A DNA stretch of 64,000 nt, taken from the NCBI GenBank assembly GCA_022652545.1, contig JALCRM010000002.1, forward strand, positions 248,001 to 312,000, in the 5' to 3' direction. Below are positions 26,648 through 42,617 of the stretch, piece after piece. Position 1 is the stretch's first letter, and each line of letters opens with the position of its first letter. The notes under the pieces are model-generated. The model did no database searches. It was not told the origin of the DNA and was given only the letters and a program-made list of their open reading frames with translations. The position numbers and the translations under genes are program-made. The DNA is from Lachnospiraceae bacterium. GTDB taxonomy: Bacteria; Bacillota; Clostridia; Lachnospirales; Lachnospiraceae.

Positions 26648-26679
26648 AATCGGAAGGCTCACCGGTGGAGAAGAAAACT

Positions 26680-29098
26680 ATGGAAAAGTATCTGGATGCA
26701 TCTTTATCGCCTGAAGAAAGGGCTGATGACCTGATTTCAAAAATGTCTCTTGAAGAATTACTGGGGCAGGTGCGGGGGTATATGCCGCGCAGTCGTAAGG
26801 ACAGCGGTGAATTGCTGAAGCAGCATCCGCATGGTGTCGGCCAGATCAGCATGCTGCTCGCAAGAATGTGCGACAGTGCGGATGAAGTTGCAAAGATCCA
26901 GCGGGATCTGCAGAAAAAGGTCATGTCGGCGTCTGAACATCACATTCCGGCTGTTTTTCATATGGAAGGTCTGTGCGGAGCACAGATTACAGGAGATCTG
27001 AGCCTGCCGTCCGGTCTTATGAGAGGCGCATCCTTTGATCCTGAACTGGAAGAACGTCTCGGACAGGTCGTCAGTCGTCAGGAACTGGCCTGCGGTATAA
27101 CGCAGGTGCTGGCACCGGTCCTGGATGTGGCAAGAGATCCCAGGATGGGCAGGCATAATGAATCCGAAGGAGAGGATCCGACACTGATTGCAAGACTCGG
27201 CAGTGCCTTTACAAAGGGGGGTCCAGGGAAAGGTCATCGACGGCAGGAAAGCAGATGCCTGTGCAAAGCATTTTATGGGATTCCATGATACGGCAGGCGG
27301 AATTCACGGCGCGGCGAGTATCTGTCCGGAAAGAGAGCTGAAAGAGATTTATGGGAAGCCTTTTCAGGCAGCCATAGTGGCCGGCAAACTGAGAGGAATC
27401 ATGCCATGCTATGATTCCATCAATGGTGAGGCGGTTCATGGATCAAAGAAACTCCTCACAGAGGTTCTCAGGGGAGAAATGGGTTTTACCGGGCAGGTTA
27501 TTTCCGATTACTCGGGAGTTGCCAACATGCACAGGGCGCAGCGTCAGTTCGAGAATGATGCATCGGCCGGATATCATGCGCTTTGCGCCGGAGTGGATGT
27601 GGAGCTTCCGGATATGGATACCATGGGGGAAGAGTTTGCCGAACTGTTCAGAAACGGAAAAGGTGATCCGGCTGTTTTGAAAAAAGCGGTCCGCAGAGTC
27701 CTTACAGAGAAGTTCAGAATGGGTCTGTTCGAACATCCGTATGCCCTTACCGGAGAAGAACTTCACCGGGCATTTGACCTTACTGAGGCAGATCGTAAGC
27801 TTACGCTGCAAAGCGTAAGGGAAGGCATCGTCCTGCTGAAGAATGAGAATAAGGTACTTCCGATCACCGGGGAAACACACCGTATCCTGGTTATCGGCTC
27901 GCAGGCAGAGACAGCCAGAGGCTATTTCGGAGGGTATACGCACTATTCCATGTCGGAAGCGCTTCTGGCAGCTGTACAGACGATGGCAGGCGTTGACCAT
28001 GAAAACGGGGCGGACAGGGAAACGGAACGGATCCCCGGAACGCAGATCCAGCGTACGGATAACGATCCGAGGTTCGAAGAACTGCTCAAAAAACAAAAAC
28101 CGGGCATAAGGAGTTTTCTTGAAGAGGTCAGAAACAGGATATCATGGGCAGCGGTGGATTATGCTTTTGGCTACCATTTTGCAGGAAATGATGAATCTCA
28201 TTTTGCCGAAGCGCTTGCAAAAGCGGAAAGGGCAGATCTGGTCATCATGATGCTGGGCGGTAAAAACGGAATGTCCATGATCGCTTCCATGGGAGAAGGA
28301 ATCGACGGGGTGAATATTAATCTGCCGCCGGCACAGGAGAAACTGATCCGTCTGATCGGGGAGACGGGAAAACAGATCATAGGTATCCATGTGGATGGCA
28401 GACCCATCTCCAGTGATGCGGCAGACCGGTATTGTACAGCGATCCTTGAATGCTTTAATCCGTCGGAAGCGGGTTCGGAAGGGATCACTGACGTATTGAC
28501 CGGAAAGGTCAACCCATCGGGGAAGATGCCCGTTTCCGTTGCCAGATGTGCCGGGCAGATACCTGTATATTACAATCATCCCAGCGGTTCTTCGTGGGAT
28601 CAGGCTGCGTCCATCGGTTTTCAGGATTATGTGGATTGTTCACACAGACCACGTTATGATTTTGGATACGGGCTGTCCTATACAACTTTTGAATACACAG
28701 ATCTTTCAATATCGGATGTAAAATCAGGTCCGGCGGATGCCGTTAATATTTCTCTGAGGGTCAGGAACAGCGGAGACGCAGCGGGGGAAGAAACGGTACA
28801 GCTCTATTTCAGGGACGAGTATGCTTCCATGGTACGTCCGGTAAAGGAACTGGCGGGATTTCAGAGAATATATCTTGCGGCAGGCCAGGAAAAGGAGCTC
28901 ACATTTCGCATGTATATGAGTCAGACTGCTTTCCTGGATGAAGACGGCAACTGGAAGATCGAAGCCGGAGATATAACCCTGATGATAGGGTCCTCCAGTC
29001 AGGATATCCGCCTTTCAGCAAAAGTCAGGATAACGGATGATGCATGGATAGAAGGAAAGGACAGACGGTTCTGGGCGGAAAGCAGAATCAAACCATGA
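26680..29098 (+). pseudogene. GH3 beta-glycosidase gene with a +1 frameshift at a G6 tract
   Basis: Codons from ATG 26680 to about 27215 encode a GH3 N-terminal barrel (MSLEELLGQVRGYMP, then QVLAPVLDVARDPRMGRHNE). After the run of six G at 27216-27221 the frame breaks and closes at 27288. One base out of phase the protein continues exactly where it should, with GVQGKVIDGRKADACAKHF. The nucleophile Asp (27506-27508, VISDYSG), the alpha/beta sandwich and a C-terminal fibronectin-III-like domain (VRNSGDAAGEETVQLYF) follow. Removing one G would give about 805 residues. It could be a mutation, a phase-variable tract or a sequencing error. Confidence 0.88.
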
Positions 29099-29111: not shown

Positions 29112-29831
29112 TTACAGAACGGTTCTGCTGTTTCTTCTGAATACATTTGCCGGCATGCCGGTTTCTTTTTTAAATACCCGGCAGAAATAATTATAATCAT
29201 TGAAACCGACCTGGTCCGATATCTCGCGAACGGAAAGGTCGGTTTTGCTTAGCGTATCCTTGGCCTTTTCCAGTCTTACAAAATTGATGTATTTCGATAC
29301 GGACATATGTACATAAGTGTGAAATTGCTGATAGGCAGTCGTTTTTCCGACACCGGATAAAAATTTGTCGATCACCGTTTCTGCAGTCAGGTCAGGCGTG
29401 TCGCTCAGCGCGTTATAGATCAGATGATAAAAATTATCAATATACTTCTGCTCCTCCATACCATTCAGGAGAGAGCCTGAAACATGTTCTCCCAGCCATA
29501 TCAGCAGCATGCTGGCTGCTCTGATCGCGTCGTTGCTTCTGTCAGTCAGGCTGCGGTCGATCAGTAGAAACCCCAGAATGTTGCGCGTTTTATCATAAAC
29601 AGGGCAGCAGGCGATCAGTCCGTTCGGACCAGCCCAGAAAATGGTCGATTTTGCTGCGCGGCATTTTTTTATAACGTCATGATACAAATCAGCTGAAGGA
29701 AATTTTTTGCCAACCGGATAATACAGCGCGGGAGTTTTTCCCTCTGTATAGATCAGCACAGGGATGTGTGTTGCAAGTTCAAAATTCCGGACATCCGCAA
29801 ATTGACTCTCATTGGAAAAATTTTCTTCCAT
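29112..29831 (-). CDS. AraC-family transcriptional regulator of the glycan locus
   Basis: The 239-residue protein ends in two helix-turn-helix motifs of the AraC type (LSVREISDQVGFNDYNYFCR then VFKKETGMPANVFRR). The N-terminal half looks like a small-molecule or PocR/GAF-like sensor (TIFWAGPNGLIACCPVYD), not a cupin. It is transcribed divergently from the GPH transporter and its downstream hydrolase genes, the classic placement for a local activator. The 175-base divergent gap (29832-30006) is AT-rich and must hold both promoters; I could not pick a clear operator in it. Confidence 0.92.
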   Translation of the reverse strand: MEENFSNESQFADVRNFELATHIPVLIYTEGKTPALYYPVGKKFPSADLYHDVIKKCRAAKSTIFWAGPNGLIACCPVYDKTRNILGFLLIDRSLTDRSNDAIRAASMLLIWLGEHVSGSLLNGMEEQKYIDNFYHLIYNALSDTPDLTAETVIDKFLSGVGKTTAYQQFHTYVHMSVSKYINFVRLEKAKDTLSKTDLSVREISDQVGFNDYNYFCRVFKKETGMPANVFRRNSRTVL

Positions 29832-30006
29832 ACCGGCTTTCCCGAATCCTTTTGCTGACCGGAAAATTTTACAGCAACCAGGAAATTATGTACTATTTTG
29901 CCTTCTTTCTGAATTATACAATATTTTCAGATCCGGGGGAAACAGAGCTTGTTTTATGTGAATATTGTTGATTGTCAGCAGGATGCGGAAGGCGAAAGGG
30001 GTAGAA

Positions 30007-31398
30007 ATGGAAAAAGGGAAGAATATCGATAATGAGAAAAAAATCGGGCCGGTTAAGTTCTTTGCCTGGAATCTGCGGGGTGTTTCGACCGGAGTATGCC
30101 TCATGGTCATGGGCTATCTGAGCATTTACTGCACAAATACGCTGGGACTCAACATTGCGGTGGTATCCATGCTGCTTGTGGTCAGCAAGGTCATCGATGC
30201 CTTTACAGACCTCATTGCAGGACTCCTGGTCGACAAGACCAATACAAAGATCGGACGCGGAAGGCCCTACGAACTCTCGATCATCGGTCTGTGGGTCTGC
30301 ACGTACCTGCTGTTTTCGGTACCGGAAAGCTGGTCAATGACAGTCAAGTATATCTGGGTTCTTCTGATGTACATTTTCGTGAATGCGGTATTCTTTACAT
30401 TGCTCAATGCCAATGTGACTGCCTATACAGTGAGGGCATTCAAATACCACGAACAGTATGTCAAACTTTCAACACTTGGATTTGTCGTTCCCATGGTAGG
30501 TGTTGCGGTATTCAACGTTATCTTCCCGACGCTTGTGGGGAGAATAGCGACGAGCCAGGCAGGCTGGTCCAGACTGATCGGGATCACCGCCATCTTTATG
30601 ACAGCACTCGGACTGCTGCGTTTTATCTTCGTGCCGGAAACCAATAAAGAAATTACGGAAGCCGAACAGGAGAAAGAAAAGGTCACCCTGAAGGATGTCG
30701 GTATTCTGTTCAAAAACGACAAGTACATATTCGCACTTGCACTGGTACAGCTGGTGCTGAATTTCACAACGAACCTGGGTGTTACAACCTATTACTTTAC
30801 CTATATAGTCGGAGACATTTCCAAACAGTCGATACTGGCGCTTGTCTCGCTGGTATCCCTGCCGCTGGCATTTGTCATTCCGCAGCTTCTGAAGAAAACG
30901 TCTGTCGTGAAAGTGATCATTCTGGGAAATATTCTGAGTATTACTGCCGGTGTGATCAATTTCATAGCGGGAAGCAACGTAGTTCTTCTGAGCATTGCCG
31001 GTTTTCTCGGAGGGATCGGAACGGTGCCCTGTTCCATGCTGCCGATGCTGCTGATTATTGACTGTGCGGATTACAACGAATATATCGGAATTCAGAGAAT
31101 GGAAGGTACCCTTTCAGCAGTAAACGGATTTGCCGGGAAGGTGGGTGCTGCGGCAGCGACAGCGGTGACAGGACTTCTTCTGGCTGCCGCGGGATTTGTT
31201 TCTTCGACGCAGGGCGCGGCGACAATGCAGCCGGGCAGCGCACTGTGGATGATCCGTGCTCTTTACAGCATTGTTCCTGCGGTGCTCTGGGTAATTACGG
31301 CATTGACCATGATGTCTTATAAACTGGAAAAGAAAATGCCGGAGATCCGCAGTACGCTGGAAGAAAGAAGAGCACAGGCAAAGTCGCAGGAAGTATGA
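30007..31398 (+). CDS. GPH-family (glycoside-pentoside-hexuronide) cation symporter
   Basis: The 463-residue protein has about 12 membrane helices and the MelB/XynB-like signature at the first cytoplasmic loop (ITDLIAGLLVDKTNTKIGRGRPY-type; seen as DKTNTKIGRGRPYELS). IDCADYNEYIGIQRMEG in the second half is the matching repeat. It likely brings xylosides or other short glycosides in with protons or sodium. ATG 30007 is favoured over ATG 29965. It heads a plus-strand operon of hydrolases extending to 40000 and is probably the uptake route for their substrates. Confidence 0.94.
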   Translation: MEKGKNIDNEKKIGPVKFFAWNLRGVSTGVCLMVMGYLSIYCTNTLGLNIAVVSMLLVVSKVIDAFTDLIAGLLVDKTNTKIGRGRPYELSIIGLWVCTYLLFSVPESWSMTVKYIWVLLMYIFVNAVFFTLLNANVTAYTVRAFKYHEQYVKLSTLGFVVPMVGVAVFNVIFPTLVGRIATSQAGWSRLIGITAIFMTALGLLRFIFVPETNKEITEAEQEKEKVTLKDVGILFKNDKYIFALALVQLVLNFTTNLGVTTYYFTYIVGDISKQSILALVSLVSLPLAFVIPQLLKKTSVVKVIILGNILSITAGVINFIAGSNVVLLSIAGFLGGIGTVPCSMLPMLLIIDCADYNEYIGIQRMEGTLSAVNGFAGKVGAAAATAVTGLLLAAAGFVSSTQGAATMQPGSALWMIRALYSIVPAVLWVITALTMMSYKLEKKMPEIRSTLEERRAQAKSQEV

Positions 31399-31431
31399 GA
31401 TTCATTTCCGGGCAACCGGAAGGGAGCGGAA

Positions 31432-33552
31432 ATGACAGCAGAGAAATACTATGATCCGGCAGACGATACCGAATTCACCGAACCTTTCACAGATATTGAT
31501 GAGGTCAGAGAGTCCTCCGGTATCCGGTTCAGATATTTTCATGGGGCTTTTAGAAATACGTCACTTAAATTCTCATTCTGTTTTCCTGAAAAAAAAGAAG
31601 ATTTCAAAGGCAGATTCTTCCAGTATCTGTCGCCGTTTCCCGGCCCCGATGAAGAAACGGCATCCCTTGGAAAAACAGGGGCTGACGATATGGTGGCCTT
31701 TGCGGTCGGACATGGTGCGGCGTTTGTTGAGAGCAACATGGCTTCCGCACAGGCATTCGGTAATTCCGCGGACTGCACGCAGAAGTATCGTTCCAGTGCA
31801 TGCACGGCCATGTACTGCCGCAGGATCGCCAGAGAAAAGCTTGGATATGAAGGCCATGTATTTGGTTATGTCTATGGCGGATCCGGAGGCGCTTATAAAA
31901 CGTTTTCATGTATTGAACAGACAAAGGTCTGGGAGGGAGCAGTACCGGTCGTTCCGGGCTGCCCGGCAGCACTTCCCAATGTGATCTTTGTAAGGGCACA
32001 TGCACTCAGGATACTGCGCCACCGGATGGACGATATCATCGAGGCAGTACGTGCCGGAAGTTTGAACGGCATAGAAGATCATATGGACCAGGAGGAAAAG
32101 GAAGCGTTTCATGAAGTTACGGCGATGGGCTATCCGCCGGAAGCCTGGCGTCATTATACAGATGGAGGAGACGGTTCCCTGGCAGTTCTGGCACCGGGGA
32201 TTAAGGCATCCGATCCGACGTACTTTACGGATTTCTGGGAAAAGGAAGGCTATCTGGGGGCTGTCCGGGGAGGATCCGCGCAGCGCGACAGGATCAGTGT
32301 CCATACCACGATCCGTGAGATCTGTCTCTCGTCGGATGATGATGAGTTTGCTGCGGCACAGAAAACAGGACTTTCCGTCGGGACGGCAGATGATGGAAGG
32401 AACGGAGTGGCATCTGCGTGGAAGAAAAAAATAGCGGAAGCGGATCCGGGCCATCCTTATATCACAGTCGATGCAGATCTTGGTAAGGATCCATATGATT
32501 CCGGACTTACAGTGACGGTGGAAAGCGGAAGCCAGGCAGGAAAGACGCTCCATATTGCCGTTGTGCATAAAGGGAGGCTGTATGTGGGACCGGGATTCCT
32601 TACGGCGGACGGAAAGGACGTGATCCCGCAGCTTAAAGTCGGAGACAGTGTCTTTCTTGACAACAGCGACTACATCGCGATCCAGACCTATCACCGGCAT
32701 CAGGTGCCGAACGCGGAATACAAGGTATGGGATCAGTTCCGTGACGGCAATGGATGGCCGGAATATCCGCAGCGGGAGAAGCTTCTGTGTTACGGCTTTG
32801 CAAAGAGCGGTGCCGGAAGTCTGCAGAACGGCAGACCGACGTGCAAAGTGATTTCCATGGCATCTCTTGCCGATGACAGTGCATTCCCGTGGATGGCAGA
32901 CTGGTACGCACAGAAGGTAAGCGAAAACTACGGTGAGAAAGCAGGAGATCTGTACCGCCTCTGGTACAATGAGCATTCTTTTCATGGCTATACAGACCCG
33001 GGATGGATCGATGTCGTAACGTATCTTCCGCAGCTGTATCAGGCGCTTCTGGACGTGGCCGACTGGGCCGAAAAAGGGATCGTACCATCTCCGGGCACGA
33101 AACATGAGATCGAAGACGGTCAGGTCATGATCCCGGCACGGGCCGGCGGCAGAGGCGGGATCCAGCCTTCGATCGAACTGACGGCAAACGGAAAAAAGCG
33201 AGCGGAAGTCAAAGCAGGTGAAACCGTCTGCTTCAGGGCAGAGTGCGAGCTGCCGGCCGGCACCGGAAGGTTTACAGGCGCCGATTTATCTTTTGATATG
33301 GATCCTTCGTATCCTGTCCATCTGCAGGTAAAAACAGGGATCCCGGAAAATATTGCCGCACAGGGATCTCCTGAAAATGGTGTATACATTTCCGCTGACG
33401 GAGAAAAGGCATTGATCTGCAGCAGGGCAAAATATGAGAAACCCGGGACATTCTATGCATATGCCAGGATCAGGGCACAGAGACAGGGCAAGGCTGATGA
33501 TCTGTTTACAACGATCATGAATATCAGTGAAGCAAGGATCGTTGTCGGATGA
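31432..33552 (+). CDS. Unassigned 706-residue serine-hydrolase-like protein
   Basis: I do not recognise this family with certainty. The strongest motif is HVFGYVYGGSGGAYKTFSCIE, of which GGSGG with S151 looks like an alpha/beta-hydrolase nucleophile elbow (GxSxG). The run that follows, VWEGAVPVVPGCPAALPN, resembles the segment after the nucleophile in tannase/feruloyl-esterase-like enzymes. The middle is rich in acidic and aromatic residues. The last roughly 120 residues (from IQPSIELTANGKKRAEVKAG) look like a beta-sandwich domain. No signal peptide is present. It lies 33 bases after the GPH symporter in a glycan operon, so removal of an ester from imported oligosaccharides is a reasonable but unproven role. 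Confidence 0.6.
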   Translation: MTAEKYYDPADDTEFTEPFTDIDEVRESSGIRFRYFHGAFRNTSLKFSFCFPEKKEDFKGRFFQYLSPFPGPDEETASLGKTGADDMVAFAVGHGAAFVESNMASAQAFGNSADCTQKYRSSACTAMYCRRIAREKLGYEGHVFGYVYGGSGGAYKTFSCIEQTKVWEGAVPVVPGCPAALPNVIFVRAHALRILRHRMDDIIEAVRAGSLNGIEDHMDQEEKEAFHEVTAMGYPPEAWRHYTDGGDGSLAVLAPGIKASDPTYFTDFWEKEGYLGAVRGGSAQRDRISVHTTIREICLSSDDDEFAAAQKTGLSVGTADDGRNGVASAWKKKIAEADPGHPYITVDADLGKDPYDSGLTVTVESGSQAGKTLHIAVVHKGRLYVGPGFLTADGKDVIPQLKVGDSVFLDNSDYIAIQTYHRHQVPNAEYKVWDQFRDGNGWPEYPQREKLLCYGFAKSGAGSLQNGRPTCKVISMASLADDSAFPWMADWYAQKVSENYGEKAGDLYRLWYNEHSFHGYTDPGWIDVVTYLPQLYQALLDVADWAEKGIVPSPGTKHEIEDGQVMIPARAGGRGGIQPSIELTANGKKRAEVKAGETVCFRAECELPAGTGRFTGADLSFDMDPSYPVHLQVKTGIPENIAAQGSPENGVYISADGEKALICSRAKYEKPGTFYAYARIRAQRQGKADDLFTTIMNISEARIVVG

Positions 33553-33664
33553 GGTACGGATTTCCGAAGATCGCCATGCTGCTTTCGATGTCGGTGCCGG
33601 TCGGACTTTCCTTCCTGCATAAGCATTTTGTAGAGGGATCGTGATCGGCGGCATGATAGGCTGA
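33549..33664 (+). pseudogene. C-terminal remnant of a MalG-type ABC permease
   Basis: In the 132-base gap between two hydrolase genes the frame from 33549 reads KIAMLLSMSVPVGLSFLHKH then FVEG. After one missing base it continues IVIGGMIG and stops at 33662-33664. Intact MalG permeases in this window end in the same style (QKQIVSGIVNGAVKE at 11598-12428, GQKYIVGGISAGAVKG at 51729-52553). The last helix and tail therefore probably survive from a deleted ABC permease. The match is short, so confidence is moderate. Confidence 0.5.
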
Positions 33665-33684
33665 ATGATAAGGAGTAGTATGAA

Positions 33685-36345
33685 ATGAGTGAAATTCTGC
33701 AGGAATTGTTGAGTGATAAAGTGCCATGTCACCTTCACCCCTTTACCGGGCTGTCATCGAAAGATACAAAGGAGAGCATTGAAAAGAAGGTATGCCTGCT
33801 GAGATCAGCAGGCATTTCTTCACTCAATATTCTCTGGGATGATCCCGGCCACGAAGGGCCGGTGTCGGCATTTAACAGCGATACGTACTGGGAACATATC
33901 GGTTGGGTGGCGGAAGTCTGCCGCACCCATGCGATGACATTCATGATCCAGGATGCGGCACCTTTCCCGTCAGGGGAAGCGGACGGATGGCTGGAAAAGG
34001 AGGAGTACAGGCAGTATCGCAAGCTGTATCTCGCGGAACGGCATCTTGACATTCAGGGCCCGCTGAAGGGCGGAAAATTCCGGGTCGATCTTCTGATGGG
34101 CGCGAACCGGAGAGGAGATGTTTTTGACCGGCCGCACGCGGAGCACTGCACAGATGAACAACTGACCGCCGTCATTGCGATGAAACGGGAGAACGGCTGT
34201 TTCAAGTCGGAGACGGCGAAGGATCTTACGGAAGAGGTCCGGGACGGTATTCTGTTTTACGATATACCGGAAGGGCTCTGGCGTATCTTTGTGATCTATG
34301 AGACGCACAACGGCAGCGGCAGGAAGGAATACATAAATCTTCTGGATGCCGGCTCGGTTGCCCTGGAGATCAAAGCCGTTTATGAACCGCATTATGAGCA
34401 TCTGAAGAACGAAGCCGGCAGAACCTGGCTCGGCATGTTTTACGATGAAACTGAGGTCGGGAATCTGGAAACTTATGATTTCACGACGCGGATCGGCACC
34501 CCGCAGGATCTCGGCGGAAGTTCGCAGGAACTCCCCTGGAGCCATGAGTTTGCATCCCGCTGGAAAGAGGAACGGGGAGAGAATTACCGGCTGGATCTCC
34601 CGCTGCTCTGGTTCTGCGATCAGAGCCGGTATGGAGCCGTACGGTACCGCTTCATGGACCTGTGTTCCCGACTGATCCGCGACAATTATAACGGGCAGGT
34701 CTACCGGTGGTGCAAAGATCATGGCCTGCAGTACATCGGGCACAATCTGGAGGATGAAAACAGCCACTGCCGGCTGGCATGCGGACCGGTACACTTCTTC
34801 CGCATGCAGGCATACCAGGACATGGCCGGCGTGGATATGATCGCAAACCAGATGTTTCCCGGAAAAGACTATACGCAGGCGTGGTACGGATGCAGCGAAG
34901 GCGACGGAGAATTCTATCATTACGGTCTTGCAAAGCTGGCCTCTTCGGCAGGTCATATCGCACCCGATAAGAAAGGACGCAGTTTCTGTGAGGTTTTTGC
35001 TGTATACGGGGCACTGGCAGGAACGAGGATACGCAAGTGCATCCTGGATCATCTTTTTGTGAACGGCATTACGGAACTGATCCCGGTGGATCCGGTTTTT
35101 AAACACCTTTCCGTTGATTACAGCAGAGAACTGAACACCTATGCCAATCGCATGTGCCATCTGCTGACTGTGACGAAGCCGGTGATCAAAACAGCAGTTC
35201 TTTATCATGCAGCGGCGGAATGGTATGGCGGAGAATATCAGTATTTTCAAAAACCGGCGGCTGAACTGGCAAAACATCAGATCAGCTATGACATTGTTCC
35301 GCAGGATGTTTTCTCAGATACAGAATTTTATCGGACCGATACAGAAAGGGGACTGACGATCAACGGCAATGTCTATGACGCATTGATCATTCCGATGGCG
35401 GAAGCGATCCCGGCTTCCGTCGCCGCCTATATCGCATGTGCGGAGAAGAACGGTTTTCCGGTATTCTACACAGACAGGAGACCGCAGGTCATCGCGGAAA
35501 CAGGAAAACCGTTCATGATCGCATATGGCATGACCGTGCCGCTTTCGGAACTGGCGGGGGAAGTCAGGAAAGCCATTGCGGCGGATATCCGGCTCGAACA
35601 GGAAGCGCCGGAACTCCGGTATGCGCATTATGAGGGGAACGGATGCCATTTTTACCTCCTGCAGAATCAGGGCAGGAAACGGCAGATCACATTTCATGTT
35701 CCGTATGCCGGCCCGGTCACAAAGCTGGATCTTCTGCATTCCACAGCGGAAGAGATCCGGGCAGGAGTTTTGCAGAGAAAGGAACTTCCGGATATTCAGA
35801 ATACCGAGACTGTGGTTTCCATGGAACTGGATCGGTATGAGTCTGTCATCCTTGTATTCGGAAACGGCGGAGTAAAAGCAAAGCCTGCTGCGGGAAATTA
35901 TCGAACGGAACCTCTGAAAACAGTATGGACGATCCGTCTGAACGATCTGCCGGAGCAGGAGGTAAGGACAGATGAATTGTATGATATCGCAGGGAAAGAT
36001 CATGATCCCCGTTATACCGGAAGAATTATCTATGAGACAGATGCGGTCTGGGACAGGATCCCGGATGAGCTCGATCTCGGAGAAGTCTATGAGGTCGCCG
36101 AGGTGTCTGTAAACGGGAAATCCGCCGGCAGCGCCATGTGCAGTCCGTACCGGTTTCATATCAGGAAACTTGCGCAGACAGGGGAAAACAGAATACACAT
36201 CGAAGTGATCCCGAATCCGGCAGCGGCACCGGTAGAAGAGGGCGCGGCAAGGCTGTTTGCCTCAATGAGTGCGGCAGCCTACTGTCCGATGGATCCGGCG
36301 GGCATGCTGGGCCCGGTGCAGGCTGTATTCCGGGATGAAGGCTGA
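33685..36345 (+). CDS. GH106-like glycoside hydrolase (alpha-L-rhamnosidase-related)
   Basis: The 886-residue protein has the architecture of GH106-related enzymes. A TIM-barrel-like core carries acidic segments (WLGMFYDETEVGNLETYDF and QYIGHNLEDENSHCRLACGP), with an RYRFMDLCSRLIRDNY helix between them. A C-terminal jelly-roll with LDLGEVYEVAEVSVNGKSAG, typical of sugar-binding domains in such hydrolases, closes the protein. There is no signal peptide, so it should act on imported oligosaccharides. Assignment to GH106 is by overall pattern and not certain. The neighbouring GH120 gene points to a xylose-containing, possibly rhamnose-decorated substrate. Confidence 0.65.
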   Translation: MSEILQELLSDKVPCHLHPFTGLSSKDTKESIEKKVCLLRSAGISSLNILWDDPGHEGPVSAFNSDTYWEHIGWVAEVCRTHAMTFMIQDAAPFPSGEADGWLEKEEYRQYRKLYLAERHLDIQGPLKGGKFRVDLLMGANRRGDVFDRPHAEHCTDEQLTAVIAMKRENGCFKSETAKDLTEEVRDGILFYDIPEGLWRIFVIYETHNGSGRKEYINLLDAGSVALEIKAVYEPHYEHLKNEAGRTWLGMFYDETEVGNLETYDFTTRIGTPQDLGGSSQELPWSHEFASRWKEERGENYRLDLPLLWFCDQSRYGAVRYRFMDLCSRLIRDNYNGQVYRWCKDHGLQYIGHNLEDENSHCRLACGPVHFFRMQAYQDMAGVDMIANQMFPGKDYTQAWYGCSEGDGEFYHYGLAKLASSAGHIAPDKKGRSFCEVFAVYGALAGTRIRKCILDHLFVNGITELIPVDPVFKHLSVDYSRELNTYANRMCHLLTVTKPVIKTAVLYHAAAEWYGGEYQYFQKPAAELAKHQISYDIVPQDVFSDTEFYRTDTERGLTINGNVYDALIIPMAEAIPASVAAYIACAEKNGFPVFYTDRRPQVIAETGKPFMIAYGMTVPLSELAGEVRKAIAADIRLEQEAPELRYAHYEGNGCHFYLLQNQGRKRQITFHVPYAGPVTKLDLLHSTAEEIRAGVLQRKELPDIQNTETVVSMELDRYESVILVFGNGGVKAKPAAGNYRTEPLKTVWTIRLNDLPEQEVRTDELYDIAGKDHDPRYTGRIIYETDAVWDRIPDELDLGEVYEVAEVSVNGKSAGSAMCSPYRFHIRKLAQTGENRIHIEVIPNPAAAPVEEGAARLFASMSAAAYCPMDPAGMLGPVQAVFRDEG

Positions 36346-36413
36346 AACGGAGCAGAACAGGACAGCATCGGCGGGAAACTGGCCGAACAGAGTGCTCTTT
36401 TGGGGGATTTGGA

Positions 36414-37970
36414 ATGACAAGACAGTATGAAACACTGGAACTGACATACAGCGGACCGAAATTGCAGGATGATCTCGTGCACACGGATATGAAGGCAGTT
36501 TTCCAGCTGAATGGAAGGCAGACAGAGTGCATGGGGTTCTATGCAGGAGATGGCATTTACAAGGTGAGATATCTTCCTCTGGAAACCGGAGAGCTTCGGT
36601 ACCGGGTGTCCGGTCCGGCAGAGGATGCCGGAACCATGATGATCTCCGGTCCTGACAGCATGCATCACGGTCCGGTCAGGACGTCCGGAACGGTCTTTCG
36701 GTACGAGGATGGCACATGCTATCTTCCGTTCGGAACGACGGTCTACGCATTGCTGCATCAGCCACAGGAACGGATCGATGAGACGATGGAGACCATGAGG
36801 AAGTCACCTTTTAACAAGATCCGCTTCTGCGTGTTCCCGAAGCATTTTCCTTTCAATACAAATGAGCCGAAATTGTTTCCGTTTGAAAAAGACGGGAGCG
36901 GGAAATTCAATGTGCATCGTCCCTGTATGAAATTCTGGGATGAAATGGAACAGTGGATCAGACAGCTGGCCGCGATGGGCACGGAAGCGGATCTGATCCT
37001 GTTTCATCCCTATGACTGCTGGGGCTTTTCGCACTTGTGCTTTGATGAATGCCTGCTCTATCTTGACTATCTTACGCGGAGGCTGTCCGCCTTTCCGAAT
37101 GTCTGGTGGTCGCTGGCAAATGAGTATGATCAGCTGGAAGATTTTGAGACCGGATGGTGGGATGCTTTTGCTTCTTATATTACGGAGCATAGCCCGGTCC
37201 GGCATCTTCTCAGCAATCATGATTTCACCCGTCCGTGGGATTTCGATCATCCTGCCTGCACACATGTCTGCCTGCAGAGTTCGGATGCATACCGGATTCC
37301 GTCACTGCTGAAGAAATATGGAAAGCCGGTGGTATTTGACGAAATGGGATATGAAGGCAATATTCCGTATCCGTGGGGAAATCTGTCCGGATTCGAGATG
37401 GTGAACAGGATCTGGAAAGCCGTGTGTTTCGGCGGTTACGGAACGCATGGCGAAACCTTCATGGAAGATATGAATGATGAGCAGACACTGTGGTGGAGCA
37501 AAGGCGGAAAGCTGAAAGGACAGAGTGAGGAACGGATCGGCTTCCTGAAACAGATACTGGAGGAATTTCCGGATGTTCCGGTGCTGCAGATACCGAAAGA
37601 ACATACGGACATCCGAAGCAGGGAGGAGTTGAGAAAGGCGATCCGGGATCATGTGCCGGGAATTGCCGATGTACCAGGATGGCGTGCACAGCTCCACGAT
37701 TCAGATGAAGATATTGCGCGGGTTTCAGATATGGGGATCGCTCCTGTGATCAGTTCGGGTAACAGAAGATACCTGAAATATTTTGGCGATATGTGTACAA
37801 TATACGGAGATATGGATCTGCCGGAAGATCACATTTATACGATCGAGGTGATCGATGTCTGGAATATGACAAGAGAAGTAGTCTCACGAAAGGCATCCGG
37901 CAGATATCATACAGTGCTTCCGGGGAAAGCAGGCATGGCGATGCTGGCCCGGTTAAGGGAAAACAGCTGA
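36414..37970 (+). CDS. DUF5060/DUF5605-type glycoside-hydrolase-like protein
   Basis: The 518-residue protein opens with a small beta-domain of DUF5060 type (LTYSGPKLQDDLVHTDMKAV). A TIM barrel of the DUF4038/apiosidase-like group follows, with acidic residues at barrel strand ends: WWSLANEYDQLEDF (the NE pair is typical of clan GH-A acid/base residues) and GKPVVFDEMGYEG (candidate nucleophile Glu). A C-terminal beta-domain of DUF5605 type closes it. It lies 68 bases after the GH106-like gene and 20 bases before the GH120 gene. A cytosolic exo-glycosidase role is likely; the sugar is unknown. Confidence 0.78.
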   Translation: MTRQYETLELTYSGPKLQDDLVHTDMKAVFQLNGRQTECMGFYAGDGIYKVRYLPLETGELRYRVSGPAEDAGTMMISGPDSMHHGPVRTSGTVFRYEDGTCYLPFGTTVYALLHQPQERIDETMETMRKSPFNKIRFCVFPKHFPFNTNEPKLFPFEKDGSGKFNVHRPCMKFWDEMEQWIRQLAAMGTEADLILFHPYDCWGFSHLCFDECLLYLDYLTRRLSAFPNVWWSLANEYDQLEDFETGWWDAFASYITEHSPVRHLLSNHDFTRPWDFDHPACTHVCLQSSDAYRIPSLLKKYGKPVVFDEMGYEGNIPYPWGNLSGFEMVNRIWKAVCFGGYGTHGETFMEDMNDEQTLWWSKGGKLKGQSEERIGFLKQILEEFPDVPVLQIPKEHTDIRSREELRKAIRDHVPGIADVPGWRAQLHDSDEDIARVSDMGIAPVISSGNRRYLKYFGDMCTIYGDMDLPEDHIYTIEVIDVWNMTREVVSRKASGRYHTVLPGKAGMAMLARLRENS

Positions 37971-37990
37971 CATTTTTAAGGAGGACAGGA

Positions 37991-40000
37991 ATGATCATCT
38001 ATGTAAATGCCGCAGCCGGACATGACGGCAATGGCAGCAGAGAAATGCCGTTCAGACAGATCAATGAGGCAGCAGCCATTGCCCGCCCGGGCGATGAGGT
38101 CCTTGTGGCGCCGGGTATCTACAGGGAATATGTGGATCCCGTTCATGCGGGGACGGAGGATGCGCGCATTGTATATCGCAGCACGGAACCGCTGCAGGCC
38201 GTGATCACCGGCGCAGAAAAGGTATCGCACTGGAAGCTGTTCCGCGGCAATGTCTATGTTACGCGCGTGGATAACGGGATCTTCGGCAGATACAATCCGT
38301 ATACGACCTATGTGTACGGCGACTGGTATTTTGCCGGACGTTCAAAACATACCGGCGCCGTCTATCTGAACGACAAGATGCTGTATGAGGCTTCCTCGGT
38401 GGAAGAATGCGAAAAGGGTGAAGTCTATGAATGTTCCTGGGATCCGGAAGGCTCGACCTACAAGTGGTATGCGGAGCAGGACGGCGGTGAGACGGTGATC
38501 TACGCCAATTTCCAGGGAAAGGACCCGAACAGGGAAAATGTCGAGATCAATGTCCGCCGCGAATGCTTCATGCCTTCAAAGACGGGGATCGGGTATATCA
38601 CGGTCAGCGGTTTTTCGGTGAACAAAGCCGCTACGACCTGGGCGCCGCCGGCTGCCTACCAGGACTGCATGATCGGGCCGCACTGGAGCAAAGGATGGAT
38701 CATCGAAGACTGCGAGATCAGCAACAGCAAGTGTGCCGGTATCGGGCTCGGCAAATACCTCGATCCCGACAATGACCACTATTTTACCTGTAAGCATGTC
38801 AAGAGTCCGACGCAGATGGAACGCGACGCTGTCTGCCGCGGGCAGTATCACGGCTGGCTGAAGGAAAAGGTCGGCAGCCATATCATTCGCCGCAACAACA
38901 TCCACAACTGTGAACAGGGCGGCATCATCGGACGTATGGGCGGTGTCTTCAGCATCATTGAAGACAATCACATTCATCACATCAACAACATGATGGAACT
39001 CGGCGGTGCGGAGATCGCCGGTATCAAGATGCATGCGGCGATCGATGTTGTCATGCGCAGAAATCATATTCATCACTGCACGATGGGGATCTGGACAGAC
39101 TGGGAGGCACAGGGCACCCGGATCACGCAGAATCTGCTGCATGACAACCAGCGTCCGGCATTTGCAAAACAGCTTAAGGGCGGTATGATGAGCCAGGATC
39201 TGTTTGTGGAAGTCGGCCACGGCCCGACGCTGATCGACAACAATATTCTGCTGTCCGATGCAACGCTCCGGATCGCTACCGAAGGCGTTGCCATGGTTCA
39301 TAACCTGATTTGCGGTTCCCTGACAATGGTAGGCGGCGGCACGGACGGTATCTGCGAGGGCGTTCTGCGCCAGCGCTTTACCCCGTATCATATCCCGCAT
39401 CGTACCGAAGTGATGGGCTTTATGACGATCCTGCACGGCGATGACCGTTTCTATAACAACATTTTTGTCCAGAAATGGCCCTCTGAAGATTTTACTGTCC
39501 GCAGCGACAGTGAAGAAACGATAATGACGGAAAATCGCGAGGTGGGTACACATGTATGGGATTCATATCCGGCATATGAGGAATGGATCCGGATGTTCGA
39601 TATGGATGTCGATACGCCGGATATGAAAAAACTGGAGCCCGCCCACTGGTCGCATCTTCCGGTCTGGGTCGAAGGCAACGCTTATTTTAACGGGGCAAAA
39701 GCCTGGAAGAAAGAAAAACATAATCTGGTCGATACGACAGACACGGTCAGAGTCGAACTGGTCGAAAAGGATGGCGAGCTGTTCCTCGACACCAATCTGT
39801 ATCAGTACCTGAAGGATTTCCATGCGGGTATGGTGGATTCCGATACGCTCGGGAAAGCCTTCGAACCGGAAGAACGGTTCGAAAATCCGGATGGCACGGA
39901 CATCTGTTTCAATACGGATTACTTCGGCGGGCATCGCGGTATTGACGTGCTGCCGGGGCCGTTCGCAAAAGCGGAAGATGCGGGAAAGCAATTACTGTAA
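37991..40000 (+). CDS. GH120 beta-xylosidase (right-handed parallel beta-helix)
   Basis: The 669-residue protein follows the characterised GH120 enzyme XylC of Thermoanaerobacterium along its length as I remember that sequence. Shared blocks are YANFQGKDPNRENVEINVRR, WAPPAAYQDCMIGPHWSKGW and IAGIKMHAAIDVVMRRNHIH. The expected nucleophile is D370 (GIWTDWEAQGT) and the acid/base E407 (LFVEVGHGP). Between them sits an extra stretch around residues 387-402 that I do not recall in XylC. ATG 37991 has AAGGAGG upstream; longer in-frame starts lie inside the previous gene. It should release xylose from imported xylo-oligosaccharides. Confidence 0.88.
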   Translation: MIIYVNAAAGHDGNGSREMPFRQINEAAAIARPGDEVLVAPGIYREYVDPVHAGTEDARIVYRSTEPLQAVITGAEKVSHWKLFRGNVYVTRVDNGIFGRYNPYTTYVYGDWYFAGRSKHTGAVYLNDKMLYEASSVEECEKGEVYECSWDPEGSTYKWYAEQDGGETVIYANFQGKDPNRENVEINVRRECFMPSKTGIGYITVSGFSVNKAATTWAPPAAYQDCMIGPHWSKGWIIEDCEISNSKCAGIGLGKYLDPDNDHYFTCKHVKSPTQMERDAVCRGQYHGWLKEKVGSHIIRRNNIHNCEQGGIIGRMGGVFSIIEDNHIHHINNMMELGGAEIAGIKMHAAIDVVMRRNHIHHCTMGIWTDWEAQGTRITQNLLHDNQRPAFAKQLKGGMMSQDLFVEVGHGPTLIDNNILLSDATLRIATEGVAMVHNLICGSLTMVGGGTDGICEGVLRQRFTPYHIPHRTEVMGFMTILHGDDRFYNNIFVQKWPSEDFTVRSDSEETIMTENREVGTHVWDSYPAYEEWIRMFDMDVDTPDMKKLEPAHWSHLPVWVEGNAYFNGAKAWKKEKHNLVDTTDTVRVELVEKDGELFLDTNLYQYLKDFHAGMVDSDTLGKAFEPEERFENPDGTDICFNTDYFGGHRGIDVLPGPFAKAEDAGKQLL

Positions 40001-40057
40001 ACAGGCATTTGATAGGGATTGTTGATTCCAGATAAGCATCAGGACACGGGGGTTCAT

Positions 40058-41791
40058 ATGGAACCGATTATAGAATTCGACCGCTTTTCGTTCCGGTACC
40101 GCTCACAGACGGAGCCGTCCCTGTACGACATCGACCTGAAGATATACCCGGGGGAGAAGATCCTCATCACCGGGCCTTCCGGCTGCGGCAAATCTACGCT
40201 TGCACGCTGCATCAATGCGCTGATCCCCTGCTCGCTCCGCGGAGAGAGCAGCGGAACAGTGAAGGTGGATGGGGAGGTGCCGGAAAAGGCCGGTATCTTC
40301 GGTATGTCCAAAAAGGTAGGTACGGTCCTGCAGGATACGGACGGGCAGTTCATAGGGCTCACGGTTGCGGAAGACCTTGCTTTTGCTCTGGAGAATGATG
40401 CGGTGCCGCAGCCTGAGATGAGGGAACGCGTCGCGCAGATCGCGGGAACGGTCAATCTGCAGAAGCTGCTGCACCATGCGCCCGGCGAACTCTCGGGCGG
40501 ACAGAAGCAGCGGGTCTCCATGGGCGGTGTGCTGGTAGACAACGTGAAGATCCTGCTTTTTGACGAACCGCTGGCCAACCTGGATCCGGCGACCGGCAAA
40601 CGCACCATCGCACTCATCGACGATATTATGAAGATGAAGGAAGTAACGGCCATCATCATTGAACATCGTCTGGAGGATGTTCTGTACCGGGATGTGGACC
40701 GCATCGTCGTGATGCAGGACGGCCGCATCGTGACAGACCGGAAGCCGGACGATCTGCTCTGCAGCAGTGTGCTGACGGAATGCGGCGTGCGGGAGCCTCT
40801 TTATGTAACTGCGATCAAATACACCGGTATGCAGATCAGGCCGGAGGACCGCCCGCAGCATATTGAAAGCATGAATGTGGAGCCGTACCGGGAAGCGGTC
40901 CGGAAATGGTTCCGCGAAGCACCTGTCAGGGACCGGCAGAACGATAACAATGCGATCCTTGAGGTAAAGGATCTGTGTTTTTCCTATTTTTCAGGGGAAC
41001 CGGTGCTGCAGCATGTTTCATTTACGCTCAAAAAGGGCGAAATGGTGAGCATGGTGGGCAGGAACGGCGCAGGCAAATCGACGCTGTCTGCCCTGATCTG
41101 CGGCTTCCTGAAACCGGATTCCGGCGCAATACTGCTCGACGGGAAGGATATTTCCCCGCTCTCGGTCAAAGAGCGCGGGGAGCGGATCGGTCTGGTCATG
41201 CAGAGCCCGAACCAGATGATCAGCAAGCCGATGATCCGCGACGAAGTAGGGCTGGGTCTCACGGTACGAGGCATCCCGGAGGCGGAGGTGAAGGAACGTG
41301 TGGAAAAAACGCTGCGGATCTGCGGCCTTTATCCATATCGGAACTGGCCGGTCTCCGCACTCAGTTTCGGCCAGAAAAAGCGGGTCACGATCGCTTCGAT
41401 CCTTGTCATGGACCCGGATATCCTCATTCTCGATGAGCCTACGGCCGGCCAGGACTACAGGCATTATACGGAGATCATGGAATTCCTGCTGGAGATCAAC
41501 AGGACGACAGGCATTACGATCCTGATGATCACGCACGACATGCACCTTATGCTGGAATACACCGACCGGGCGATCGTCATCGCCGACGGTACGCTTGTCA
41601 CGGACGATACGCCTGCACATGTCCTGACGGACGATGCGATCACGGAGAAGGCGGACCTGAAAAAGACTTCCCTTTATGACCTCGCGGTGCGCTGCGGCAT
41701 TCCGGATCCGTCGGAACTGGCGGAGCGTTTCATCGCTTACGAACGGGCTGACACAAAGAAGGAAGAGGAGGTGCCTGCAGATGGCCGTTAA
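40058..41791 (+). CDS. ECF transporter energising ATPase, two fused ABC domains
   Basis: The 577-residue protein contains two complete ABC modules. The first has Walker A GPSGCGKST and signature LSGGQKQRVSMGG. The second has Walker A GRNGAGKST, signature LSFGQKKRVTIAS and Walker B ILILDEPTAGQD. This is the fused EcfA-EcfA' (YkoD/CbrC-like) arrangement. It overlaps the T-component gene by 11 bases. Such units drive uptake of vitamins, metals or other micronutrients through small S components. No S gene is adjacent, so it may use unlinked S subunits. It starts 57 bases after the GH120 gene and could share that transcript. Confidence 0.93.
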   Translation: MEPIIEFDRFSFRYRSQTEPSLYDIDLKIYPGEKILITGPSGCGKSTLARCINALIPCSLRGESSGTVKVDGEVPEKAGIFGMSKKVGTVLQDTDGQFIGLTVAEDLAFALENDAVPQPEMRERVAQIAGTVNLQKLLHHAPGELSGGQKQRVSMGGVLVDNVKILLFDEPLANLDPATGKRTIALIDDIMKMKEVTAIIIEHRLEDVLYRDVDRIVVMQDGRIVTDRKPDDLLCSSVLTECGVREPLYVTAIKYTGMQIRPEDRPQHIESMNVEPYREAVRKWFREAPVRDRQNDNNAILEVKDLCFSYFSGEPVLQHVSFTLKKGEMVSMVGRNGAGKSTLSALICGFLKPDSGAILLDGKDISPLSVKERGERIGLVMQSPNQMISKPMIRDEVGLGLTVRGIPEAEVKERVEKTLRICGLYPYRNWPVSALSFGQKKRVTIASILVMDPDILILDEPTAGQDYRHYTEIMEFLLEINRTTGITILMITHDMHLMLEYTDRAIVIADGTLVTDDTPAHVLTDDAITEKADLKKTSLYDLAVRCGIPDPSELAERFIAYERADTKKEEEVPADGR

Positions 41792-42617
41792 CAGCAGACT
41801 GCTTTCCTACGAGCATAAAGATACCTGGATCCACGATCTCAGCGGTGTGACGAAACTGATCTTTTTCCTGCTCTGGTGTATCGTCAGTGCGCTGACTTAC
41901 GATACGCGCGTGCTGCTCATCATGATCGCCGTCAGCGCCGCGATCCTTCTCATGTCCAAAACAAAGTGGAACCAGATCGGCGCCGTCTTCAAACTGATCA
42001 TGGTTTTCATGATACTGAATGTCGTTGCGATCTTTTTCATGTCGCCCTATCAGGGCTGCCAGATTTACGGTAGCCGCACGGAGATCAGTCATCTTTTCGG
42101 AAACTGCTACGTGACGAAGGAACAGCTGTTTTACCTTTTCAATGTGGTCATCAAGTACTTTACGATCATACCGGCCGTCTTTGCCTTTATGGTCACAACA
42201 GATCCCAGTGAATTTGCGGCTTCCCTGAACGGGCTCGGCGTCAGCTACGGGATCTCCTATTCGATCGCGATCGCGCTGCGCTATATACCGGATATCCAGG
42301 AGGACTTCCACCGCATCAGGAATGCCCAGGAGGCACGCGGCATCGAGATGAGCGCAAAGGCCAAGCTGAGCGACCGCATAAAGCGCACCTCGAGTATCAT
42401 TTTTCCGCTGCTTTTTTCGACGATGTCACGGATCGACGTGGTCAGCAATGCCATGGAGCTGCGGGGCTTCGGGAAAAAGAAAAAGAGAACCTGGTACGCA
42501 TTCAGGCCGCTTCGCAGGAACGACTGGATGGTGCTTGTTTTCATTGTGGTTTTTTCCGTCTGGGCGCTTGTCTTTACGTTCCGGGACGGCAGCCGGTTCT
42601 ATAATCCGTTTCTCTGA
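41781..42617 (+). CDS. ECF transporter transmembrane (T) component
   Basis: The 278-residue integral membrane protein is an EcfT-type scaffold. It has several helices and the two ATPase-coupling motifs with Ala-Arg-Gly cores, visible as RNAQEARGIEMS and NAMELRGFGKKKK. ATG 41781 has GAGGAGGTG upstream and overlaps the ATPase gene, so the two are translationally coupled. Its stop lies four bases from the stop of the convergent azlD gene, leaving no room for a terminator. Confidence 0.93.
   Translation: MAVNSRLLSYEHKDTWIHDLSGVTKLIFFLLWCIVSALTYDTRVLLIMIAVSAAILLMSKTKWNQIGAVFKLIMVFMILNVVAIFFMSPYQGCQIYGSRTEISHLFGNCYVTKEQLFYLFNVVIKYFTIIPAVFAFMVTTDPSEFAASLNGLGVSYGISYSIAIALRYIPDIQEDFHRIRNAQEARGIEMSAKAKLSDRIKRTSSIIFPLLFSTMSRIDVVSNAMELRGFGKKKKRTWYAFRPLRRNDWMVLVFIVVFSVWALVFTFRDGSRFYNPFL

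Follow-up and report, generated by a model that had tools for sequence, protein, structure and literature searches.

The subject of this analysis is a gene encoding a 706-residue protein (hereafter the 706-aa protein), which lies in a 64,000-nucleotide stretch of DNA (the window) spanning positions 248,001 to 312,000 of contig JALCRM010000002.1, from a Lachnospiraceae bacterium (assembly GCA_022652545.1) whose genome comprises 2.67 Mb in 27 contigs. An initial annotation had described the locus as a divergent AraC-type regulator, a glycoside-pentoside-hexuronide (GPH) cation symporter, the 706-aa protein with a GGSGG elbow containing S151, an 886-residue enzyme, a DUF5060/DUF5605-type enzyme and an enzyme of glycoside hydrolase (GH) family 120. 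All of these open reading frames (ORFs) are in place (Table 1), with Pfam agreeing on AraC, GPH, DUF5060/DUF5605 and GH120, and the GGSGG motif occupies residues 149-153 of the 706-aa protein. Comparison of sequences and of predicted structures places this protein in the tannase / feruloyl esterase B / MHETase superfamily, as a predicted serine esterase.

Table 1. Features of the locus, in window coordinates, with the basis of each assignment.
Feature	Coordinates	Strand	Basis
GH3 glycosidase gene	26665..29098	+	Pfam; two overlapping frames, 26665-27288 and 27188-29098
AraC-type regulator, divergent	29112..29831	-	Pfam HTH_18, E 1.8e-17
GPH cation symporter	29965..31398	+	Pfam MFS_2, E 1.3e-54
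706-aa tannase-superfamily-like serine esterase (predicted)	31432..33552	+	Alignments, fold models
S151 codon, putative nucleophile	31882..31884	+	Falls on the GCSxGG serine of PF07519 enzymes (hhalign)
Approximate lid insertion, about residues 180-470	31969..32841	+	Boundaries inferred by comparison with MHETase
D481 codon, putative catalytic Asp	32872..32874	+	Aligned to the tannase Asp
H518 codon, putative catalytic His	32983..32985	+	Faces the His of HC when aligned jointly with MAFFT
C-terminal PKD-like beta domain, about residues 580-706	33169..33549	+	Pfam matches in family members
886-aa putative glycosidase	33685..36345	+	C-terminal beta-sandwich like GH106/GH2 enzymes
Apiosidase-like (PF13204) enzyme with DUF5060 and DUF5605, 518 aa	36414..37970	+	Pfam
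GH120 beta-xylosidase-like enzyme	37991..40000	+	Pfam GH120 insertion domain PF21258, E 1.8e-41

As a single query, the 706-aa protein has no Pfam match over the cut-off, none in NCBIfam and no PDB relative by sequence; its best Pfam match, Cpn10 (E 0.18), lies below the cut-off of that model and was rejected. The closest homolog found, from a Butyrivibrio metagenome-assembled genome (MAG), shares 83% identity, and a protein search recovered relatives in 7 of 299 genomes of the window's own family, the window genome counted. A scan of the collection confirmed 16 loci out of 29 candidate stretches, coming from Lachnospiraceae, other Clostridia, Bacteroidota, Novosphingobium, Paenibacillus and two Lokiarchaeota, and profile searches, with seed genomes counted, found the family in 3 of 391 genomes of the class, 7 of 194 of the Lacihabitans order and 8 of 199 of the family to which the Novosphingobium MAG belongs. 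Relatives also occur on 8 plasmid records, and among cultured strains Blautia schinkii DSM 10518 carries a homolog (locus L028). The 706-aa family is coherent, sparse but wide, extending over Clostridia, Bacteroidota, Pseudomonadota and two Lokiarchaeota, and no open-access paper describing it was found, judged by titles and abstract openings; PMC5730166 and PMC6879456, in the portions considered, concern other esterases. The homolog set used for conservation, tree and neighbourhood analyses omits the Paenibacillus locus L029 (two frames), the small fragment G715:C237 and the further matches of the later order- and family-level searches, takes three of the eight plasmid matches, and includes L071 placed by hand, where a longer shadow ORF is present.

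The placement of this family rests on several comparisons of models and profiles. An AlphaFold model of the 706-aa protein (pLDDT 80.9, pTM 0.82) gave Aspergillus niger tannin acyl hydrolase 7k4o as the top Foldseek match (E 4e-12), with feruloyl esterases and MHETase also among the best, and a model of the Lacihabitans homolog (pLDDT 83.5), built on an alignment overlapping that of the first, gave MHETase (E 2e-12). A PDB search with the family profile listed feruloyl esterase B-2 6g21 at E 0.017, which turned out to be the right lead; four dPPR repeat proteins topped the same search and were discarded as a repeat artefact, each repeat matching a WVEKGI.P-like stretch at about -1 to 5 bits, and a proteinase inhibitor appeared at E 0.33. 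Weak direct matches to Pfam Tannase (PF07519) were obtained for 4 of 16 family members at E <= 0.1 (best E 4.4e-4). For comparison, tannases were fetched from the family of the Novosphingobium MAG, in which 11 of 39 genomes contain PF07519: 14 loci gave 15 ORFs (L045 and L048 yielding none with the sought motif), and the removal of three spurious or truncated duplicates left 12 cleaned sequences. With hhalign, the 706-aa family aligned to the 15 ORFs over residues 32-188 (P 6.8e-6); against the cleaned set, residues 20-200 alone gave P 1.6e-4 in the same register, and residues 425-565, which include a shared WVE.G..P tail, gave P 5.1e-8.

Alignment and conservation point to S151, D481 and H518 as the candidate Ser-Asp-His triad, with the serine in a G-x-S-x-G elbow. 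GGSGG, D481 and H518 are invariant in a 16-member alignment; in the wider set position 151 is Ser in 33 of the 33 homologs covering it, so that the motif is not a chance occurrence, and positions 481 and 518 are Asp and His, respectively, in 34/34. Within the lid, residues 410-447 are strongly conserved (DNS..., Q418, R422, H423, Q424, D434, R437 and Q447), and at the C-terminus PKD was matched in 10 and PKD_4 in 11 of 16 members, the window protein itself being unmatched. The initial annotation had regarded the protein as serine-hydrolase-like, with S151 as a potential triad residue, and both the predicted hydrolase fold, headed by tannase-family structures, and the conserved candidate residues agree with it.

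Three results speak against this placement, or against parts of it. The window protein has no match to PF07519 (curated cut-off 29.8 bits) at E <= 1. Foldseek TM-scores against tannase-family structures reach 0.28-0.37 of the query, with root-mean-square deviations of 15-19 A, so the whole-chain match of the models is loose though the E-values are strong, with lid and domain placement differing. Moreover, hhalign, at four settings, sets H515 rather than H518 opposite the tannase His by means of a three-residue gap; H518 was taken as the candidate catalytic His because it is invariant in all 34 homologs, while H515 is variable. A PF07519 search of 31 relatives of the window genome returned none, and carries little weight since no control genome matched either.

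Regarding cellular location, a simple hydropathy scan, made without a signal-peptide predictor, detected a hydrophobic N-terminus of the signal-peptide type in each of the six Bacteroidota and three Pseudomonadota members it covered and, among Firmicutes, in L075; the window protein and most of the remaining Firmicutes members lack one. In a 32-sequence tree, which omits L016 and L084, the Firmicutes members, L075 apart, group together (20 sequences, 95/95), as do those of Bacteroidota and Pseudomonadota (81/97); L075 sits on a long branch. By this account there seem to be an exported branch and a cytosolic branch, the latter often beside a GPH importer. The intracellular action that had been proposed for the hydrolases of the locus agrees with the N-terminus of the 706-aa protein, which is a weak sign, as predicted signal peptides are present in only 7.9% of Roseburia/Eubacterium rectale glycosidases, the site of action of the others being left open in the portion of that study considered (PMC5320581).

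Two further observations concern individual family members. At locus L081 (G709:C40) the homolog is a 755-aa ORF whose opening stretch resembles, by eye, the GH3 neighbour's N-terminus, which looks like a fusion of GH3 and esterase or a deletion junction. The genome with L036 and L039 (G715:C331) carries three matches to the 706-aa family plus two to PF07519 on one contig, the latter pair in separate open frames, one over and one under the cut-off.

The genes surrounding the 706-aa gene include several predicted glycosidases. The GH3 gene, not named in the initial annotation, occupies the same neighbourhood in relatives, where GH3 homologs lie near 706-aa family genes; its second frame has as nearest solved relative 7zb3, named a beta-xylosidase (E 7e-109), and its homolog in locus L017 is one long ORF of 815 aa. 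The split in the window reflects either a frameshift in the organism or a sequence error. The symporter scores 204 bits against NCBIfam TIGR00792 (E 2.7e-60), under the cut-off of 231, and its TTG start may lie upstream of the true one. With the 886-aa protein alone, PDB matches to the GH106 enzymes 6q2f, 5mqm and 5mwk fell in the C-terminal part, and an 8-member profile matched them in one stretch each, within positions 641-855 at most; the NCBIfam BT4145 rhamnosidase model reached 53 bits against a cut-off of 1300, its best stretch covering 795-846 and a second one being weaker. The earlier GH106-like assignment is thus clearly supported for the C-terminal domain only; a GH106 model is absent among the Pfam matches of this protein at E <= 1. 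Relatives of the 886-aa protein occur in 56 of 299 genomes of the same family, the window genome counted.

The 518-aa protein matches PF13204 above its cut-off (49.1 versus 26.5 bits) and PDB 4n0r at E 6e-75; the first PF13204 structure was reported in PMC4032388, the portion of which considered here leaves the substrate of the apiosidase-like protein unsettled. The GH120 ORF spans 37793-40000 (735 aa), with an internal ATG at 37991 that fits the similarity to XylC (PDB 3vst), which, read from there, runs from residue 7 of both proteins; this is a full-length match (residues 7-659, E 2.4e-143). Downstream, at 40019-42617, there are ORFs resembling, by eye in translation, a two-cassette ABC ATPase and then an ECF-type transmembrane transporter subunit.

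To characterize the gene neighbourhood across the family, the nearest ORFs of at least 180 aa, up to three per side within 6 kb, were collected at 34 family loci and compared by BLAST with carbohydrate-active enzyme (CAZyme) and GPH references drawn from four of these loci, three of them Firmicutes; the near copies L016 and L017 were both counted, and the fragment L084 is among the 12 other loci. Among Firmicutes loci, 13/22 have a glycosidase, 11/22 a GPH transporter and 17/22 either (10/19, 8/19 and 14/19, respectively, without the three reference loci). Over all loci, reference loci counted, 47 of 167 neighbour ORFs match the references versus 1 of 158 control ORFs, taken from one other contig in each of 20 genomes. 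A Pfam tally, free of the reference bias, omits L016, L083 and L084, and uses as control 69 of the 158 control ORFs in shuffled order, one very long ORF being skipped. It gave GH3 in 9, MFS_2 (GPH-type) in 9, GH78 in 5, GH43 in 3 and AraC-type regulators in 11 of 69 neighbours at 20 Firmicutes loci, and GH78 in 3, GH79 in 3, an NrtR/AraR-type regulator in 4 and a TonB receptor in 3 of 42 neighbours at 11 other loci; the 69 controls gave, among the 25 of 112 families listed, AraC-type in 4 and GH4 in 1, and no GH3, GH78, GH43 or MFS_2. The glycan association in Firmicutes is far above control.

Furthermore, GH78 lies within 20 kb of at least 11 of 29 family loci where 2.5 are expected, with a rough Poisson P of 6e-5 that ignores contig ends and relatedness. 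At L075, apiosidase-like, GH43 and two GH78-type genes, the 706-aa relative and GH3 stand in a row, and the partner set across the family comprises GH78, apiosidase-like, GH3, GH43 and once GH42, with GH79 in Bacteroidota. Five Bacteroidota loci (L018, L019, L020, L021 and L023) have an NrtR/AraR-like winged-helix regulator near the homologs, the five proteins clustering together, and some loci with this regulator also carry GH78-like, GH79 and short-chain dehydrogenase/reductase (SDR) genes. The homolog at the lokiarchaeal locus L026 (3636-8670) lies beside a pyruvate-formate-lyase-like glycyl radical enzyme, of which there are 2 among the 42 non-Firmicutes neighbours.

With the integration of fold, candidate residues and neighbourhood, we consider it rather probable that the 706-aa protein is a serine carboxylesterase, cytosolic in this organism, that takes an acyl group off a plant compound imported with several sugars attached. 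In this bacterium and the majority of its Firmicutes relatives the compound would first be imported, often via the adjoining GPH symporter, and reach the esterase in the cytosol, where the large lid may recognise it; S151 would attack the ester to give an acyl-enzyme, with H518 and D481 completing the triad. Judging from the neighbouring genes, the acyl group removed from this small compound would be one that blocks glycosidases, and the GH3, GH120, apiosidase-like and rhamnosidase-type partners could then strip its several sugars. The partners hint, faintly, at acylated plant glycosides or oligosaccharides with rhamnose, apiose, xylose and an aromatic acyl group as the substrate class, and acylated phenolic glycosides would fit them at least as well as xylo-oligosaccharides. 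Phenylethanoid glycosides, for instance, carry caffeic, coumaric, cinnamic and ferulic acids in ester linkage as well as rhamnose, xylose, apiose, glucose and arabinose (PMC6273160); the match is one of composition and does not show function. Tentatively, and with less confidence, we put forward a more specific proposal: a new carbohydrate-esterase-type family, disulfide-free and tannase-derived, that deacylates imported plant specialised-metabolite glycosides (e.g., phenylethanoid glycosides bearing caffeoyl or feruloyl groups) in the cytosol of Lachnospiraceae from rumen and gut, alongside rhamnosidases, apiosidase-type enzymes and xylosidases that take the sugar crown apart.

Gut and rumen bacteria strip acyl groups and sugars from plant polyphenol glycosides, and to our knowledge many of the enzymes responsible are unknown. 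By the sequence comparisons this is a real, coherent family of predicted esterases for which the libraries searched hold no Pfam or NCBIfam model over cut-off. Given clear candidate catalytic residues and recurring partners, a few assays could give these hypothetical proteins a name as an esterase family; should xylan be the only substrate, they would amount to one more accessory esterase.

A narrower possibility, which follows the initial annotation, is an esterase for acetyl or feruloyl groups that works on decorated xylo-oligosaccharides after their import and ahead of the GH120 xylosidase. The locus probably handles beta-xylosides, as its GH120 enzyme is XylC-like and the nearest relative of its GH3 frame is a named beta-xylosidase, and a Roseburia locus with GH120 and two carbohydrate esterase (CE) family 1 genes is predicted to act on arabinoxylan (PMC5320581). 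However, the two xylosidase-like enzymes of the window do not establish that substrate: GH10, GH11, GH67 and GH115 are absent among the 25 commonest of 61 and of 66 neighbour families, the recurring partners being GH3, GH78, GH43, apiosidase-like and GH79 enzymes, and the three listed Roseburia xylan or arabinoxylan loci each carry ABC transporters, to which one adds a GPH (PMC5320581). We regard this restricted substrate as unlikely. The broader idea of a carbohydrate-linked esterase is retained here as the leading reading, since the Firmicutes relatives mostly stand with glycan genes. Against it count the 5 of 22 Firmicutes loci that lack both a glycosidase and a GPH (some of these lie near contig ends) and the other loci, of which only 5/12 (4/11 without the reference locus) have a glycosidase; by the nearest-ORF test, none adjoins the homolog at both Lokiarchaeota, two Novosphingobium, the Spirosoma plasmid and the Runella loci, the last having a GH78 match 20.5 kb away, just past the 20-kb limit. 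One outcome that was named at the outset as a refutation, the occurrence of homologs away from glycan genes, is thus seen in part. The partner specificities that underlie the proposal are also inferred ones, 'apiosidase-like' being a Pfam name and 4n0r being titled only 'putative glycoside hydrolase'.

Homologs without an adjoining glycosidase imply that the activity need not be glycan-specific, and the protein could be a general aromatic or alkyl ester hydrolase with a non-glycan substrate, for which MHETase offers a tannase-family precedent (PMC7568301), the glycan neighbours in Firmicutes then being incidental or confined to one lineage. We judge this distinctly improbable, since that association far exceeds the control level and glycosidases also adjoin homologs in Bacteroidota (GH78, GH79) and in Alteromonas, where a neighbour is annotated as alpha-L-rhamnosidase. 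Saponins such as platycosides bear ester-linked chains of arabinose, rhamnose, xylose and apiose, and an esterase that cuts a sugar acyl ester of this kind (e.g., the ester-linked oligosaccharide of triterpene saponins), instead of freeing an acid bound to a sugar hydroxyl, would call for a comparable set of glycosidases; this has chemical plausibility in its favour, but no sequence evidence sets it apart from other esters, and its likelihood appears very low. Least of all do we expect a catalytically inactive protein or a transacylase: the active-site disulfide of tannases is missing from all members compared, but the three triad residues occur without exception in three bacterial phyla and an archaeal lineage, as would be expected under selection for catalysis.

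Among known systems, the deacylating esterase proposed here is closest to the PF07519 enzymes, represented in our comparison by A. niger 7k4o, Aspergillus oryzae FaeB 3wmt, the Fusarium oxysporum feruloyl esterase 9hun/8bhh and Ideonella MHETase 6qz3. The models suggest that both have an alpha/beta-hydrolase core in which a large lid separates the nucleophile from the Asp-His part, and the WVE.G..P tail follows the His in both; the residues come in the order Ser, Asp, His with comparable spacing, S151/D481/H518 here versus S225/D492/H528 in MHETase (PMC7568301). In MHETase a Cys before the Ser and a Cys after the His form a disulfide that is conserved in the tannase family (PMC7568301), known as the CS-D-HC motif (PMC7936011), and five disulfides are conserved in that family (PMC7568301). 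The 706-aa family lacks the CS-D-HC disulfide, residue 150 being Gly in 33/33 and residue 519 Cys in 0/34, and has no invariant cysteine, the commonest Cys column reaching 22 of 34 members; among the 12 fetched tannases, 8 columns hold Cys in 11 or more sequences. Exported members also lack the tannase cysteines, which argues that their loss is not merely an adaptation to the cytosol. The family further differs from PF07519 in its own conserved lid stretch, its PKD-like C-terminal domain and the export signal unseen in most Firmicutes members. With no disulfide, its own lid motif and the PKD-like domain, it is therefore called tannase-superfamily-like and not a PF07519 member; judged by its sequences, it is a variant of a known superfamily, not a standard tannase.

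BD-FAE (PF20434) and other feruloyl or acetyl-xylan esterases are serine esterases of plant-glycan loci, and the 706-aa protein has no match to the BD-FAE family in Pfam; in Alteromonas, a BD-FAE gene lies two genes downstream of the homolog. As for the locus as a whole, the Gram-positive polysaccharide utilization loci (gpPULs) of Roseburia and E. rectale resemble it in their AraC-type regulators, GPH or ABC transporters, several glycosidases mostly without signal peptides, and esterase genes (PMC5320581). The gpPUL esterases named in the portion of that study considered here belong to CE1, CE2 and CE3, with no tannase-superfamily protein mentioned there. Apart from the 706-aa protein, the locus is of an ordinary Firmicutes glycan type.

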